Source: Acidobacteriota bacterium (GTDB lineage: Bacteria > Acidobacteriota > Terriglobia > Bryobacterales > Bryobacteraceae). From it: DNA of 64,000 nucleotides. Positions 38,823 to 45,754 of the stretch are shown in pieces; within the stretch, counting starts at the first letter, position 1, and each line of letters opens with the position of its first letter. Both the position numbers and the translations under genes were made by a program. The notes beneath the pieces are model-generated. The model searched no databases. It had not been told where the DNA came from and saw nothing but the letters and a program-made list of their open reading frames with translations. Location: the NCBI GenBank assembly GCA_016201205.1, contig JACQDF010000030.1, positions 1 to 64,000 on the forward strand, read 5' to 3'.

Positions 38823-39827
38823 TCAGGTCTGACTCGACACAAAAAAATCGATCTTGTGAAGCAGGGCTTCGAAGGTGATCCCGAACACCGGCAGCACAAT
38901 CCAGGCGGCTCGCACCGGCAGCATCACTTCCCGCTGCTGCACCTGCACCGTGATGTCCAGAAGAGACGCCAGTGCGTGAGCCACCTGTCGTTTGACAATG
39001 TCCAAAGTCTCTACCCGCAGCATGAACACGAGAATCGCCGAGTGGTCCCAGGAAAAGAACTGGTCGGCTGGCGAGAGGTTGGTGGCCAGTTGTTCGGAAA
39101 TCGCGAAAACAAGATTGTCGGCAACACCTCGTCCAAAGCGATCTGTGACGACGCGATACCGCTCGGCGGCAAAGACGGCCGCGTAGGCGTGATCGCCAGC
39201 CTCAATGGCGGCGAGGAGTACGCGCTCGGCCTGCTTGCGCGTCGGGAAGCCGGTCGCCGATTCAAACTCCGCCTCCCCTGCAATGGTGAAGCCCGGCGCA
39301 TTCTTGGCGTGAGCCTCCAGTTGCTGTTTCAGCCCACTCAGGTTCCGGACTGTATCGTCCCGCTGTTTTTGATGTTCCTCGCGGATGGCTCGAAGGTGGT
39401 CCGCGAGTGAGTTTTTCAGAGTCAGGAAATCCTCTGCGCTATAGGCTCGTTCAATCTTCCGCTCCACCTCTTGCAACTGCACCGCCAAGGATTGGCTGGT
39501 TTTGCCAAGATCCACGATCGTATGGGAGAGCATGGAGATCATCTGGTGGAGATACGCATGGTGCATCCGGAAGTGCTGCGCGGCCCGCCGGTTGTATTCT
39601 TCCAGCGCCTTGTTGGCGGCGCCGGTCAGAACGAGCACATTCTCGTGATTGGGGTCCTCATCCAACTGGCGGAGAATCTCGTCGATGTCGGATCGGAATT
39701 TCGCGTGATCGTCCTCATTCACGGCGATGGAATGCAGGCCGATGCCCTGGATGAGCAGAGATAACCCCCGGAAAAAGGCGCCGGCTTTGTCAGCCGAGCT
39801 ATCGAGGTATTTACGCAGTGAGATCAC
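38823..39827 (-). CDS. GGDEF-like protein with degenerate active site
   Basis: 334 residues. A mostly helical N-terminal region of about 190 residues includes a likely coiled coil (LQEVERKIERAYSAEDFLTLKNSL). The C-terminal part follows the GGDEF fold: ESATGFPTRKQAERVL stands in for the usual D-x-L-T-x-L-x-N-R, and FFSWDHSAILVFM occupies the GGDEF hairpin as S-W-D-H-S. With the signature lost, it is unlikely to make c-di-GMP and may bind GTP or c-di-GMP as a receptor or signalling partner. It is divergent from hemerythrin and shares with it a palindromic operator. Confidence 0.65.
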   Translation of the reverse strand: MISLRKYLDSSADKAGAFFRGLSLLIQGIGLHSIAVNEDDHAKFRSDIDEILRQLDEDPNHENVLVLTGAANKALEEYNRRAAQHFRMHHAYLHQMISMLSHTIVDLGKTSQSLAVQLQEVERKIERAYSAEDFLTLKNSLADHLRAIREEHQKQRDDTVRNLSGLKQQLEAHAKNAPGFTIAGEAEFESATGFPTRKQAERVLLAAIEAGDHAYAAVFAAERYRVVTDRFGRGVADNLVFAISEQLATNLSPADQFFSWDHSAILVFMLRVETLDIVKRQVAHALASLLDITVQVQQREVMLPVRAAWIVLPVFGITFEALLHKIDFFVSSQT

Positions 39828-39892
39828 GGCCGGCTTCCTTTACGACTTATCGGCCGGCAGGACGGGATTCTGCGGATGGAGAAGCTGTTTTG

Positions 39893-39906
39893 GTGACCTA
39901 GGTCAC
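39893..39906. promoter_or_regulatory. Perfect 14-bp palindrome, CRP/FNR-type operator candidate
   Basis: GTGACCTAGGTCAC fits GTGA-N6-TCAC, the half-site pattern of the CRP/FNR family. It lies between the divergent GGDEF-like gene (66 bases from its start) and hemerythrin (49 bases from its start). Confidence 0.6.
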
Positions 39907-39955
39907 TGTGGCTGGGCGGCGCTTGCTCCAGAATCAGGCTCTGGAGGCATTCCCA

Positions 39956-40477
39956 ATGACCCACCCGGTTGAATTGCTGATCAACGAACACCGCCTGATC
40001 GAACGAGTGCTTGACGAACTGGAGCAGCGGCTGTCTGGAGACGCGTTTCCCGCGGAGTTTCTCGAGAAGGCCCTCGATTTCTTCATCCGCTTTGCCGACG
40101 GCGTCCACCATCACAAGGAAGAGCAAGTGCTGTTTCCGGCGCTGGCTGCGGCCGGCGTTCCCGTCGAGGGAGGCCCCATCGGGGTGATGCTCGATGAGCA
40201 CCAGTTTGGACGGCACTGCCTGAGGATGATAGGAGCGAACCTGCCCGCGGCTCTCCAGGGGAGCGAGGAATCCGAAGTCCAAGTGCGGCAATATGCGGCC
40301 CAGTACCTTGAACTGCTGAGGCGCCACATCTGGAAGGAAGACAACGTGCTGTTTCAGATTGCGCAGCGCGTTCTGTGCTCGTCCGGCGACGTGGCGGCAC
40401 TCGAAAAGCAATTTCGCGAAGTGCCGAATCCGCTGGAAGAGCTGGTGGCCGAGCTGACCGGCGCCGGCGTCCGCTAG
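39956..40477 (+). CDS. Hemerythrin-domain protein
   Basis: 173 residues from the ATG at 39956 (MTHPVELLINEHRLIE), with GGAGG 8 bases before it; the track start at 39908 has no such site. The four-helix hemerythrin diiron ligands are visible: NEHRLIERVLDEL, HHHKEEQVLFPAL (HxxxE), LDEHQFGRHCL, and RHIWKEDNVLF (HxxxxD). Such proteins bind oxygen or nitric oxide or sense redox state. The CRP/FNR-type palindrome upstream fits oxygen- or NO-dependent expression. The following 267 bases to 40744 hold no gene that I can support. Confidence 0.88.
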   Translation: MTHPVELLINEHRLIERVLDELEQRLSGDAFPAEFLEKALDFFIRFADGVHHHKEEQVLFPALAAAGVPVEGGPIGVMLDEHQFGRHCLRMIGANLPAALQGSEESEVQVRQYAAQYLELLRRHIWKEDNVLFQIAQRVLCSSGDVAALEKQFREVPNPLEELVAELTGAGVR

Positions 40478-40744: not shown

Positions 40745-41023
40745 TCACGGAACACGCTCGCCTTTCGGGGCCTGAGCAGGAAGCAGAAAAGTCTTGATCA
40801 ACTCACCCTCGCCGCAGACTGTCATACCGGAGAATCGCTTGTACCACAGACCCTCGAGTACCTCGGGCTCGCCGTCAAGCCACTTGGCCAGCAGTTCTAA
40901 CTGAGATGCGGGAATCTTCCGGCTCTGGACGCGGTCTAGCAGATGCTGAAACAGAGCGGGTGGAACATATTGGCGGCGGACTCTCGGCACGACCTGATCC
41001 CTAGCTTCCCGACCCTCTAGCAT
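40745..41023 (-). CDS. Hypothetical protein paired with RHH protein
   Basis: 92 residues, four bases after the stop of the ribbon-helix-helix gene on the same strand. Sequence features: a basic start (QVVPRVRRQYVPPALFQHLLDR), then LELLAKWLDGEPEVLEGLWYKRF and GMTVCGEGELIKTFLLPAQ. No catalytic motif of a known toxin is recognised. Its size and position fit the second gene of a toxin-antitoxin-like module, but a non-toxin role is equally open. A later GTG (VVPRVRRQY) is an alternative start. Confidence 0.55.
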   Translation of the reverse strand: MLEGREARDQVVPRVRRQYVPPALFQHLLDRVQSRKIPASQLELLAKWLDGEPEVLEGLWYKRFSGMTVCGEGELIKTFLLPAQAPKGERVP

Positions 41024-41027
41024 CTAG

Positions 41028-41369
41028 CTAGATCCCATAGAAGCCGCGAGTGAGACGCTCTTTGATCCGTGCCGCCTCAACCGGATTCGAGGCCGCCGCG
41101 AGCCGTTTGGCTAGAAGGCCCAATTCTTCGGGGCTAAGGCGATTCCCCTTGCCCTCCAGGACGGCAAGTTCCGCGGTTTCGAGTGCGACCTCTTCCCCAG
41201 TTGGCTTTCGCGCCACCACCCGGCTCCCGGTTAGCGCCTGCCGCACGAACCAGTGATAGACGGCCAATGCGCTCTTGATCACCTCCGTTCGCTTGGAGCG
41301 CGTCAACTCGGCCATCTGGTCAACCAGTGCAAGTTCGTTCGGTGTCAGGACGGGCTGGATTCTTGCCAT
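41028..41369 (-). CDS. Ribbon-helix-helix-like DNA-binding protein
   Basis: 113 residues. The first 45 residues (IQPVLTPNELALVDQMAEL...SKRTEVIKSALAVYHWFV) match the RHH/CopG pattern of a short strand and two helices. The rest is a helical tail (LSPEELGLLAKRLAAASNPVEAARIKERL) that may contact a partner. Such proteins usually repress their own promoter and, in toxin-antitoxin pairs, neutralise the product of the adjacent gene, here the 92-residue protein. Confidence 0.65.
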   Translation of the reverse strand: MARIQPVLTPNELALVDQMAELTRSKRTEVIKSALAVYHWFVRQALTGSRVVARKPTGEEVALETAELAVLEGKGNRLSPEELGLLAKRLAAASNPVEAARIKERLTRGFYGI

Positions 41370-43648: not shown

Positions 43649-44809
43649 ATGTCGCTGTCGATTGTTCTGGACGCCCGGCACATCCGCGATTTTGGTGTCG
43701 GAACCTACATTCGCAACCTGACACAGAGCCTGGGCAAACTCGATTCGGACAACCAGTACACGCTGGTCATCCATCCAGGGGATGCACCGCTGCTGGCGGG
43801 CCTGCCCATCAATTTCCGGCTCGTTCATTACGAAGGCCGCGACACACAGCCTTCCGAACATTTTTCGTTCCCGCTCTTCCTGCGGCGTCTGCCGGCCAGC
43901 CTGTATCACATCCCTATCACGATGGTTCCCGTGTGGATGCCGGGGCCTTACGTGGTGACGGTGCACGACGTCAGCCGGCTGCTGTTCGAGCCGCTGCCGC
44001 GCTGGCGGCACGGCCTCCGCCGGTTTCGGCTCCGGCGCGCCTTGTTGAAAGCGGGCCGCATCATCACCGTTTCGGAAGCCACCAGGAACGACGTCGAGGA
44101 ACTGCTCGGCATCCCGGCGCAAAAAATCCGGCTGATCCATAACGCGCCCGATCCGCGCTTCTTCGAGCATGGCCCGCCTTCGGACGCCCGCGCCGGCGGC
44201 CCCGGCGTCTACGACCACGAGCGGCGGCGCATTCTCGAGCGATATCAGATCACGTACCCGTTTCTGCTCTACGCCGGAACGATCCGGCCGCAGAAGAACA
44301 TCCCGCGGCTGGTGGAGGCGTTTGCCGTTCTGAGGGGCGAACTGGAAGAGCACGCGGTGTACAAGGATCTGCGTCTCATCATCATCGGCGACGAGATCTC
44401 GCGCTATCCCGGCGTGCGCCGCGCGGTCGTCGAAACACGCATGGCCAACGCCGTGCGTTTTCTGGGCTTCGTGCCGTTCGACACGCTGCGGGTGTTCTAT
44501 GAGTCGGCCGCGGCCTTCGTGTTTCCGTCGTTGTATGAAGGCTTCGGCCTGCCGCCGCTCGAAGCGATGGCTTCCGGAACACCGGTGGTGACCTCCTGCG
44601 TCAGCTCGCTTCCGGAGGTGGTGGGCGATGCGGCCGTGATCGTGAACCCGGAAAATGTGTTTGACATCGCCCGCGGCATGAAAGAAGTTCTGCTCGACGA
44701 GGACTTGCGCCGCCGTCTGGTCCGGGCCGGGATCGAGCAGGCGGCCCGCTTCAGTTGGGAGCGGACCGCGCGGGAAGTGCTCGAGACCTATCAAGAGGTG
44801 GCCCGCTGA
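43649..44809 (+). CDS. Glycosyltransferase family 4 (GT-B)
   Basis: 386 residues beginning immediately after the glyA TGA. N-terminal Rossmann half with DARHIRDFGVGTYIRNL. C-terminal half with FLLYAGTIRPQKNIPRLVEAF, RFLGFVPFDTLRVFYESAAAFVFPSLYEGFGLPPLEAMASG and the nucleotide-sugar motif E-G-F-G-L-P-x-x-E typical of GT4. It transfers a sugar, often mannose or glucose, to a lipid or polysaccharide acceptor at the inner membrane. Donor and acceptor cannot be named. It completes an rpiB-glyA-GT operon. Confidence 0.9.
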   Translation: MSLSIVLDARHIRDFGVGTYIRNLTQSLGKLDSDNQYTLVIHPGDAPLLAGLPINFRLVHYEGRDTQPSEHFSFPLFLRRLPASLYHIPITMVPVWMPGPYVVTVHDVSRLLFEPLPRWRHGLRRFRLRRALLKAGRIITVSEATRNDVEELLGIPAQKIRLIHNAPDPRFFEHGPPSDARAGGPGVYDHERRRILERYQITYPFLLYAGTIRPQKNIPRLVEAFAVLRGELEEHAVYKDLRLIIIGDEISRYPGVRRAVVETRMANAVRFLGFVPFDTLRVFYESAAAFVFPSLYEGFGLPPLEAMASGTPVVTSCVSSLPEVVGDAAVIVNPENVFDIARGMKEVLLDEDLRRRLVRAGIEQAARFSWERTAREVLETYQEVAR

Positions 44810-44812
44810 CGC

Positions 44813-45754
44813 CTACGGCCGGATGCCCGTCGTGGACAGCCGGATGCGATACAGTCCTGTCCGCGCCGTGATGTAGAGTGTGCGTGCGTCGTCGTCACCC
44901 CAGTGCAGGTTGGCGGGAATCTCCGGCGTGACGATGACGCCGATGCGTCTGGCTTCCGGCGTGAACACGTGTGTCCCGCCCGGGCCTGTGCAGAACAGAT
45001 TGCCTTGCTGGTCGGTCTTCATTCCGTCGGGCGCTCCGGGCTCGGTCAGGTGGGTCACATCGGCGAAGACGCTCCCTTCACCAAGCGTTCCGCCGGCGAG
45101 CACCGGGAAGCGGTTCCAGATTTTGCGCTTCACGTCAGAGTTCGCCACGTAGAGATATTTCTCATCCGGCGTGAAGGCGAGCCCGTTGGGCCGCGTCATG
45201 TCCTTGTGCAACAGTGTGAGTACGCCGTCCTTGAGGCGGAAAACGCCATTGAAGTCGAGTTCTTTGGCTGGATCGTGGTCCTGCTTCACCAGGCCGTAGG
45301 GCGGGTCGGTGAAATAGAGCGCGCCGTCGGATTTGTACACGGCATCGTTGGGGCTGTTGAGCCGCTTCCCCTGCCATTCGGAGGCAAGCACGGTAAGCGA
45401 GCCGTCGGGCTCGAGGCGGGTGACACGCCGGTTGCCGTGCTCACAGAGGGTGATCCGGCCCTGGGGATCGAGCGTGAGCCCGTTGGAACCGATAAACGCG
45501 CCCTTGGGTGCGTCCGTGCCGTCAAAGCCGCTCGGCTTGCGGAACACAGTCAATTCGCCGGCGCGCGTCCATTTGTACATGGTGTTCTCCGGGATATCGC
45601 TGAACACCAGGCAGCCTTCTTTGATCCAGACAGGGCCTTCCGTGAACGAGAACCCGCCCGCGAGTTTTTCGATGACGGCGTCGCGGGGAATCAACGCGTC
45701 GATAGCGGGATCGAGCCGGATGATGCTGCCCACAAGGGCGGCTGGCGCGCTCAT
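44813..45754 (-). CDS. SMP-30/gluconolactonase-like lactonase
   Basis: 313 residues, no signal peptide. The six-bladed propeller family is shown by FSFTEGPVWI (metal Glu), SNGLTLDPQGRITLCEHGNRR, NSPNDAVYKSDGALYFTDPPYG (metal Asn and substrate site) and RPNGLAFTPDEKYLYVANSD (metal Asp). These are the calcium or zinc ligands of sugar lactonases that open aldonolactones. It would feed sugar acids to dehydratases such as that at 12564. A TAGAAT box ends 6 bases before the start codon. It converges on the glycosyltransferase gene with a three-base gap. Confidence 0.88.
   Translation of the reverse strand: MSAPAALVGSIIRLDPAIDALIPRDAVIEKLAGGFSFTEGPVWIKEGCLVFSDIPENTMYKWTRAGELTVFRKPSGFDGTDAPKGAFIGSNGLTLDPQGRITLCEHGNRRVTRLEPDGSLTVLASEWQGKRLNSPNDAVYKSDGALYFTDPPYGLVKQDHDPAKELDFNGVFRLKDGVLTLLHKDMTRPNGLAFTPDEKYLYVANSDVKRKIWNRFPVLAGGTLGEGSVFADVTHLTEPGAPDGMKTDQQGNLFCTGPGGTHVFTPEARRIGVIVTPEIPANLHWGDDDARTLYITARTGLYRIRLSTTGIRP

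Follow-up and report, generated by a model that had tools for sequence, protein, structure and literature searches.

The locus raises the question of what a perfect palindrome is doing between two divergent genes, one encoding a hemerythrin and the other a GGDEF-like protein, and whether it serves one of them or both. In the window, by which we mean the whole analysed stretch of 64,000 nucleotides, the initial annotation had placed such a palindrome, and it is confirmed as GTGACCTAGGTCAC at positions 39893-39906. The gene to its left is on the minus strand and begins with a GTG at 39827; the hemerythrin gene to its right is on the plus strand and has its ATG at 39956. A longer hemerythrin frame from GTG 39908 is possible, but the ATG is the start found in the orthologues. 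The layout is as follows:

38823-39827, minus strand: degenerate GGDEF-domain protein of 334 aa (weak PF00990 match, 3.6e-6), probably not controlled by the site
39867-39872, minus strand: leftward -10-like hexamer CAGAAT, 20 bp from the operator and off the 22/23 optimum, a weak candidate only
39893-39906, no strand assigned: CRP/FNR-type operator GTGAC-CTAG-GTCAC, consensus GTGAC-N4-GTCAC
39929-39934, plus strand: CAGAAT, the putative -10 element of the hemerythrin promoter, located 22 bp 3' of the operator, class II spacing
39956-40477, plus strand: hemerythrin-like di-iron protein of 173 aa (PF01814, 8.9e-20), the likely target gene

The palindrome consists of two-fold symmetric, TGA-containing half-sites in the spacing of CRP/FNR operators (GTGAC-N4-GTCAC, that is, GTGA-N6-TCAC), and it is the only exact copy of its sequence in the 7.0-Mb genome. 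The symmetry by itself is not significant, since six perfect 14-bp palindromes are seen in the window and 6.1 are expected from its composition. The argument for a functional site, rather than a chance one, is that GTGAC/GTCAC recurs in the same place in front of orthologous hemerythrin genes. Among the 12 close orthologues (the window's own included, the others being 49-61% identical), nine have the exact GTGAC-N4-GTCAC motif 58-69 bp 5' of the start of the match, as against 0.22% of random 160-bp stretches taken from hemerythrin-bearing loci. The initial annotation had staked its proposal on the palindrome being present in orthologous intergenic regions, and for the hemerythrin it stands up in this respect. 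The site-bearing genes are those of the window, G004, G006, G005, G002, G030, G012, G026 and one of the two G001 copies; the motif is absent before those of G027 and G032 and before the other G001 copy. Ten outer bases are constant in these sites and the four middle ones vary. A -10-like hexamer follows 22-23 bp after the site in all nine, reading CAGAAT, CACAAT or GACAAT in seven and being weaker in two. The protein itself has an HHE domain with conserved metal-ligand positions: H12, H51, H52, E55, H82, H124 and E128 are invariant in the alignment, and the usual His/Glu/Asp positions are present. A scan of named genomes confirmed the site in Bryobacterales/Solibacteraceae relatives and did not find it at hemerythrin homologues from other phyla. 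One Solibacteraceae hemerythrin locus (L301) carries two tandem motif copies, an exact one at -103 and another with one mismatch at -66, the latter with a class II -10 element.

The same arrangement extends well beyond the hemerythrin. We looked through 81 relatives for a composite pattern in which N20-25 and then TANNNT come after GTGACNNNNGTCAC; totals were summed by hand from the tables. The composite is found 155 times, whereas the reversed pattern and a spacing control with the gap set to N30-35 give 21 each. The gap is 22 or 23 in 101 of the 120 listed family composites, and a G stands two bases beyond the site in 94 of them (78%). When a CRP/FNR protein activates in the class II manner, the operator is centred near -41.5. 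The distance of 22 bp in the window, that of 22-23 in the orthologues, the peak in the family and the spacing control all place the operator at this position.

The 93 non-identical first genes downstream of these composites were examined by Pfam. Hemerythrins are the most numerous (29), followed by ScdA_N proteins (13), 4Fe-4S/NapH-like proteins (about 13) and NorB cytochrome-c-like proteins (10); cupins, CcmE, DUF438-hemerythrin-PAS proteins, NapC/NirT and ECF sigma factors occur in smaller numbers, and one NrfH and one TIGR04053 radical SAM protein score above the curated cut-off. “NapH-like” denotes resemblance only, because these proteins score below the NCBIfam NapH cut-off. The genes behind the composite sites in relatives are thus an NO and low-oxygen gene set, in which the site precedes genes for NO reduction as well as for the repair of NO damage. 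The proposed link of a CRP/FNR-type site at the hemerythrin to NO or oxygen is supported by the motif preceding NO reductase, RIC/ScdA, hemerythrin and NrfH genes in the relatives. Some palindromes have a class II -10 element on both sides (G021:C10:20005, G016:C423:2358, G022:C311:1368, G018:C20:16194, G068:C1:289448 and G009:C173:22422) and might drive a pair of divergent promoters, one of the flanking genes being NrfH, for instance. Within one sub-lineage of the genus, ECF sigma factor and cupin genes near ScdA/RIC carry the site (G010:C301, L129-L131, with equivalents in G003, G009 and G011).

The type of protein that probably reads these sites in the relatives is indicated by their surroundings. 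A comparison of coordinates places CRP/FNR genes within a few hundred bases of composites in about a dozen genomes, and these genes form one group (alignment A1) with the recognition helix GTVREVVSRNL or GTVRELVSRN. Their best relative among solved proteins is DNR of P. aeruginosa (3dkw, 4e-23), so that the Dnr/FNR-like regulator suggested at the outset has its counterpart next to the sites in about 12 relatives. Genomes with the DNR-like group contain on average 3.0 composites and those without it 0.4 (Mann-Whitney p = 4e-8, not corrected for relatedness). According to Rodionov et al. (PMC1274295), R180 and E181 of the family go with the site bases G3 and A6; the RE pair in the helix therefore predicts GTGA...TCAC, as is found. 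The N-terminal cysteine cluster of FNR is absent from alignment A1. Cysteines 45 and 114 of this alignment, which lie outside any N-terminal cluster, are invariant and may matter for sensing. That NO is the signal is suggested by the target genes and the likeness to DNR.

DNR-like NO regulons are a kind of system that is already known. In denitrifying proteobacteria, DNR is an FNR-like, NO-responsive regulator with the motif CTTGAT-N4-ATCAAG (PMC1274295), and as here, a CRP/FNR regulator and a palindromic site are combined with genes for NO reductase and NO protection (PMC1274295). The sites described here do not have the DNR motif TTGAT-N4-ATCAA; they read GTGAC-N4-GTCAC, fitting the Arg at the position equivalent to R180. 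Unlike the DNR regulon, this one is found in Acidobacteriota and includes many hemerythrin and NapH-like genes. The Bryobacterales system works like DNR and is not filed as DNR itself. In letters, the closest motifs are those of HcpR in delta-proteobacteria (TTGAC-N4-GTCAA and TGTGA-N6-TCACA), whose regulons, with nrfHA, ferredoxin-like and hemerythrin-like genes, are partly alike (PMC1274295). In contrast to HcpR, the regulator is here nearest to DNR among solved proteins, and hcp is not among the Pfam families tallied downstream. The E. coli CRP site TGTGA-N6-TCACA shares the GTGA-N6-TCAC core and the RE in the recognition helix, but here a C is required inward of the half-site, and the targets are NO-related rather than catabolic.

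On these grounds, the palindrome is probably the class II site of a CRP/FNR-family activator at the hemerythrin promoter, of a type read by DNR-like proteins and belonging to an NO/low-oxygen regulon. GTGAC-N4-GTCAC would be bound, with its centre some 41 bp before the transcription start, by a DNR-like homodimer, with the helix GTVREVVSRNL in the relatives. The bound dimer would contact RNA polymerase, and upon NO or low oxygen transcription would proceed from the -10 hexamer CAGAAT. The hemerythrin may bind O2 or NO, or may help to protect iron centres, and its promoter would form part of a family-wide NO/low-oxygen regulon of the Bryobacterales (Acidobacteriota). The site, its conservation and spacing, the regulon content in relatives and the type of the adjoining regulator are computed; from these we infer binding, activation, the NO/oxygen signal and the function of the hemerythrin. 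That the site is of CRP/FNR type and NO-linked is well supported computationally, because of its conservation, its spacing, the downstream gene set and the adjoining DNR-like regulator. Most likely, then, the palindrome switches on the hemerythrin gene within the NO/low-oxygen gene set of the Bryobacterales.

What the genome of the window retains of this system is another matter. The assembly is 94.3% complete and was searched for CRP/FNR proteins with HTH_Crp_2, with cNMP_binding and with a profile of the DNR-like group. The three independent searches agree on one true CRP/FNR protein, encoded on contig C275, which is of a different type with the helix RETTSS; none of them found the DNR-like regulator in this assembly. 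The cognate regulator expected of a DNR-like NO regulon is thus missing here, and it is present in all 11 other members of the genus. The search for CRP/FNR regulators called for at the outset therefore yielded such a protein, though not the DNR-like one. No NorB-like NO reductase was found in the assembly either, and the hemerythrin of the window is the only one in the genome. These absences, together with the three of 12 orthologues without the site, count against the preferred reading. The bare motif GTGACNNNNGTCAC occurs 10 times genome-wide, compared with seven in the reversed control, mostly inside genes, and a genome-wide regulon based on the bare motif alone is rejected. By position, two credible promoter-like sites are left, that of the window's hemerythrin and the following one:

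G000:C337:14258-14299 (L070): second credible site GTGACCACCGTCAC, with a gap of 22 and the hexamer TATCCT, 11 bp before a gene for a NapH-like 4Fe-4S membrane protein (the NapH-like ferredoxin gene)

About eleven further genomes also have the site at a NapH-like gene of this type. The search for the palindrome upstream of NO genes, also called for by the initial annotation, is thus answered positively in relatives (NorB, ScdA, NrfH) and, in this genome, by the NapH-like gene and the hemerythrin only. In G026, a member of another genus with a 99% complete assembly, the DNR-like group is likewise missing, yet the hemerythrin and the NapH-like gene still have their sites.

The regulator may lie in the missing 6% of the assembly, may have been lost recently, or may have been replaced by another protein. 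It is possible, though less likely than not, that this lineage has lost the DNR-like regulator together with most of the regulon and that the site is now a relic read by nothing. The assembly without that regulator, NorB or any other hemerythrin is what such a loss would leave, and G026, nearly complete, lacks the regulator and has the two sites all the same. Against a relic, the ten constrained bases are intact at both sites, here and in G026, where drift should have eroded them unless the loss is recent; moreover, the assembly is at 94% completeness and the regulator occurs in every one of the 11 other members of the genus, so the gene may simply be missing from the sequence. A rather unlikely variant is that the regulon has shrunk to the hemerythrin and the NapH-like ferredoxin, the operators being kept under selection and read by another regulator after the DNR-like one was lost; it would cover at least two Bryobacterales lineages, this one and that of G026. 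The C275 protein is an unlikely reader of the site. In its favour, no other CRP/FNR regulator was found and it possesses R180/E181, the residues associated with G3 and A6 (PMC1274295), but the third contact Arg is absent, no orthologue has GTGAC-N4-GTCAC near its gene, G026 keeps the sites without a close orthologue, and G007 and G069 carry a C275-type protein and have no composite sites at all. An autoregulatory motif of the C275 protein was also sought and rejected, there being no shared palindrome in 12 orthologues. That the palindrome arose by chance and is without function is extremely improbable: the expected frequency of perfect 14-mers in the window and the genome-wide counts of GTGACNNNNGTCAC would allow it, but half-sites, position and -10 spacing are conserved before the orthologues.

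Preferring an activator site for the hemerythrin leaves the other half of the initial proposal, in which the single site jointly controls both genes as an oxygen/NO signalling pair. This is quite unlikely. The divergent layout and the leftward CAGAAT at gap 20 would suit it, and the several relatives with one palindrome and -10 elements at 22-24 on both sides make sharing conceivable within the regulon. In none of the 22 GGDEF homologues from other genomes does the motif occur in the 250 bp upstream of the protein match, the best other motif hit having two mismatches; 12 of these protein matches begin at the N-terminus and the others as much as some 180 residues into the protein, and for the latter the test is weaker. 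Co-control by phylogenetic footprint is rejected for this reason. The homologues also lie on contigs other than those of the close hemerythrin orthologues. G004 and G006 keep the site and the hemerythrin, along with the TIM-barrel gene, but not the GGDEF gene; there the stop codon of the TIM-barrel gene overlaps the palindrome and the hemerythrin follows, whereas in the window the TIM-barrel gene is found on the far side of the GGDEF gene. The site thus goes with the hemerythrin whether or not the GGDEF gene is present. In addition, a gap of 20 occurs once in the 120 listed composites, and the G two bases past the window site stands on the hemerythrin side only and is missing leftward. With neither footprint nor spacing on the side of the GGDEF neighbour, control of that gene and a signalling pair are not supported.

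The initial annotation was right in calling the GGDEF protein degenerate. Its signature reads SWDHSAI in place of the GG(D/E)EF of an active diguanylate cyclase, and the motif is lost in all 17 aligned sequences (the window protein and 16 homologues). The family (38823-39827 in the window; loci L003-L016, L030 and L031) has the N-terminus ISLKKYL and FRWxGPxF replacing GGDEF, and homologues are present in 28 of the 61 genomes searched. In G023, a distant hemerythrin-domain protein (C311:41046-41474, 29% identity) is encoded at a distance of about 2.7 kb from one of the degenerate GGDEF homologues (44194-45126); no site is seen in this neighbourhood, and the arrangement is not orthologous.

Searches of the full-text literature, the literal motif included, found no paper giving the Bryobacterales motif or regulon. 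NO control is little described in the Acidobacteria, which are among the commonest soil phyla. The motif and the rule for its spacing to the -10 element predict dozens of NO/low-oxygen genes in uncultured genomes and name the type of regulator, and they tie stand-alone hemerythrins and the NapH-like ferredoxin to NO physiology. Downstream of the hemerythrin in the window, two small adjoining ORFs on the minus strand (40745-41023 and 41028-41369) have no Pfam match; the upstream one resembles, by eye, a small DNA-binding protein, and the two may form a pair of the toxin-antitoxin type.
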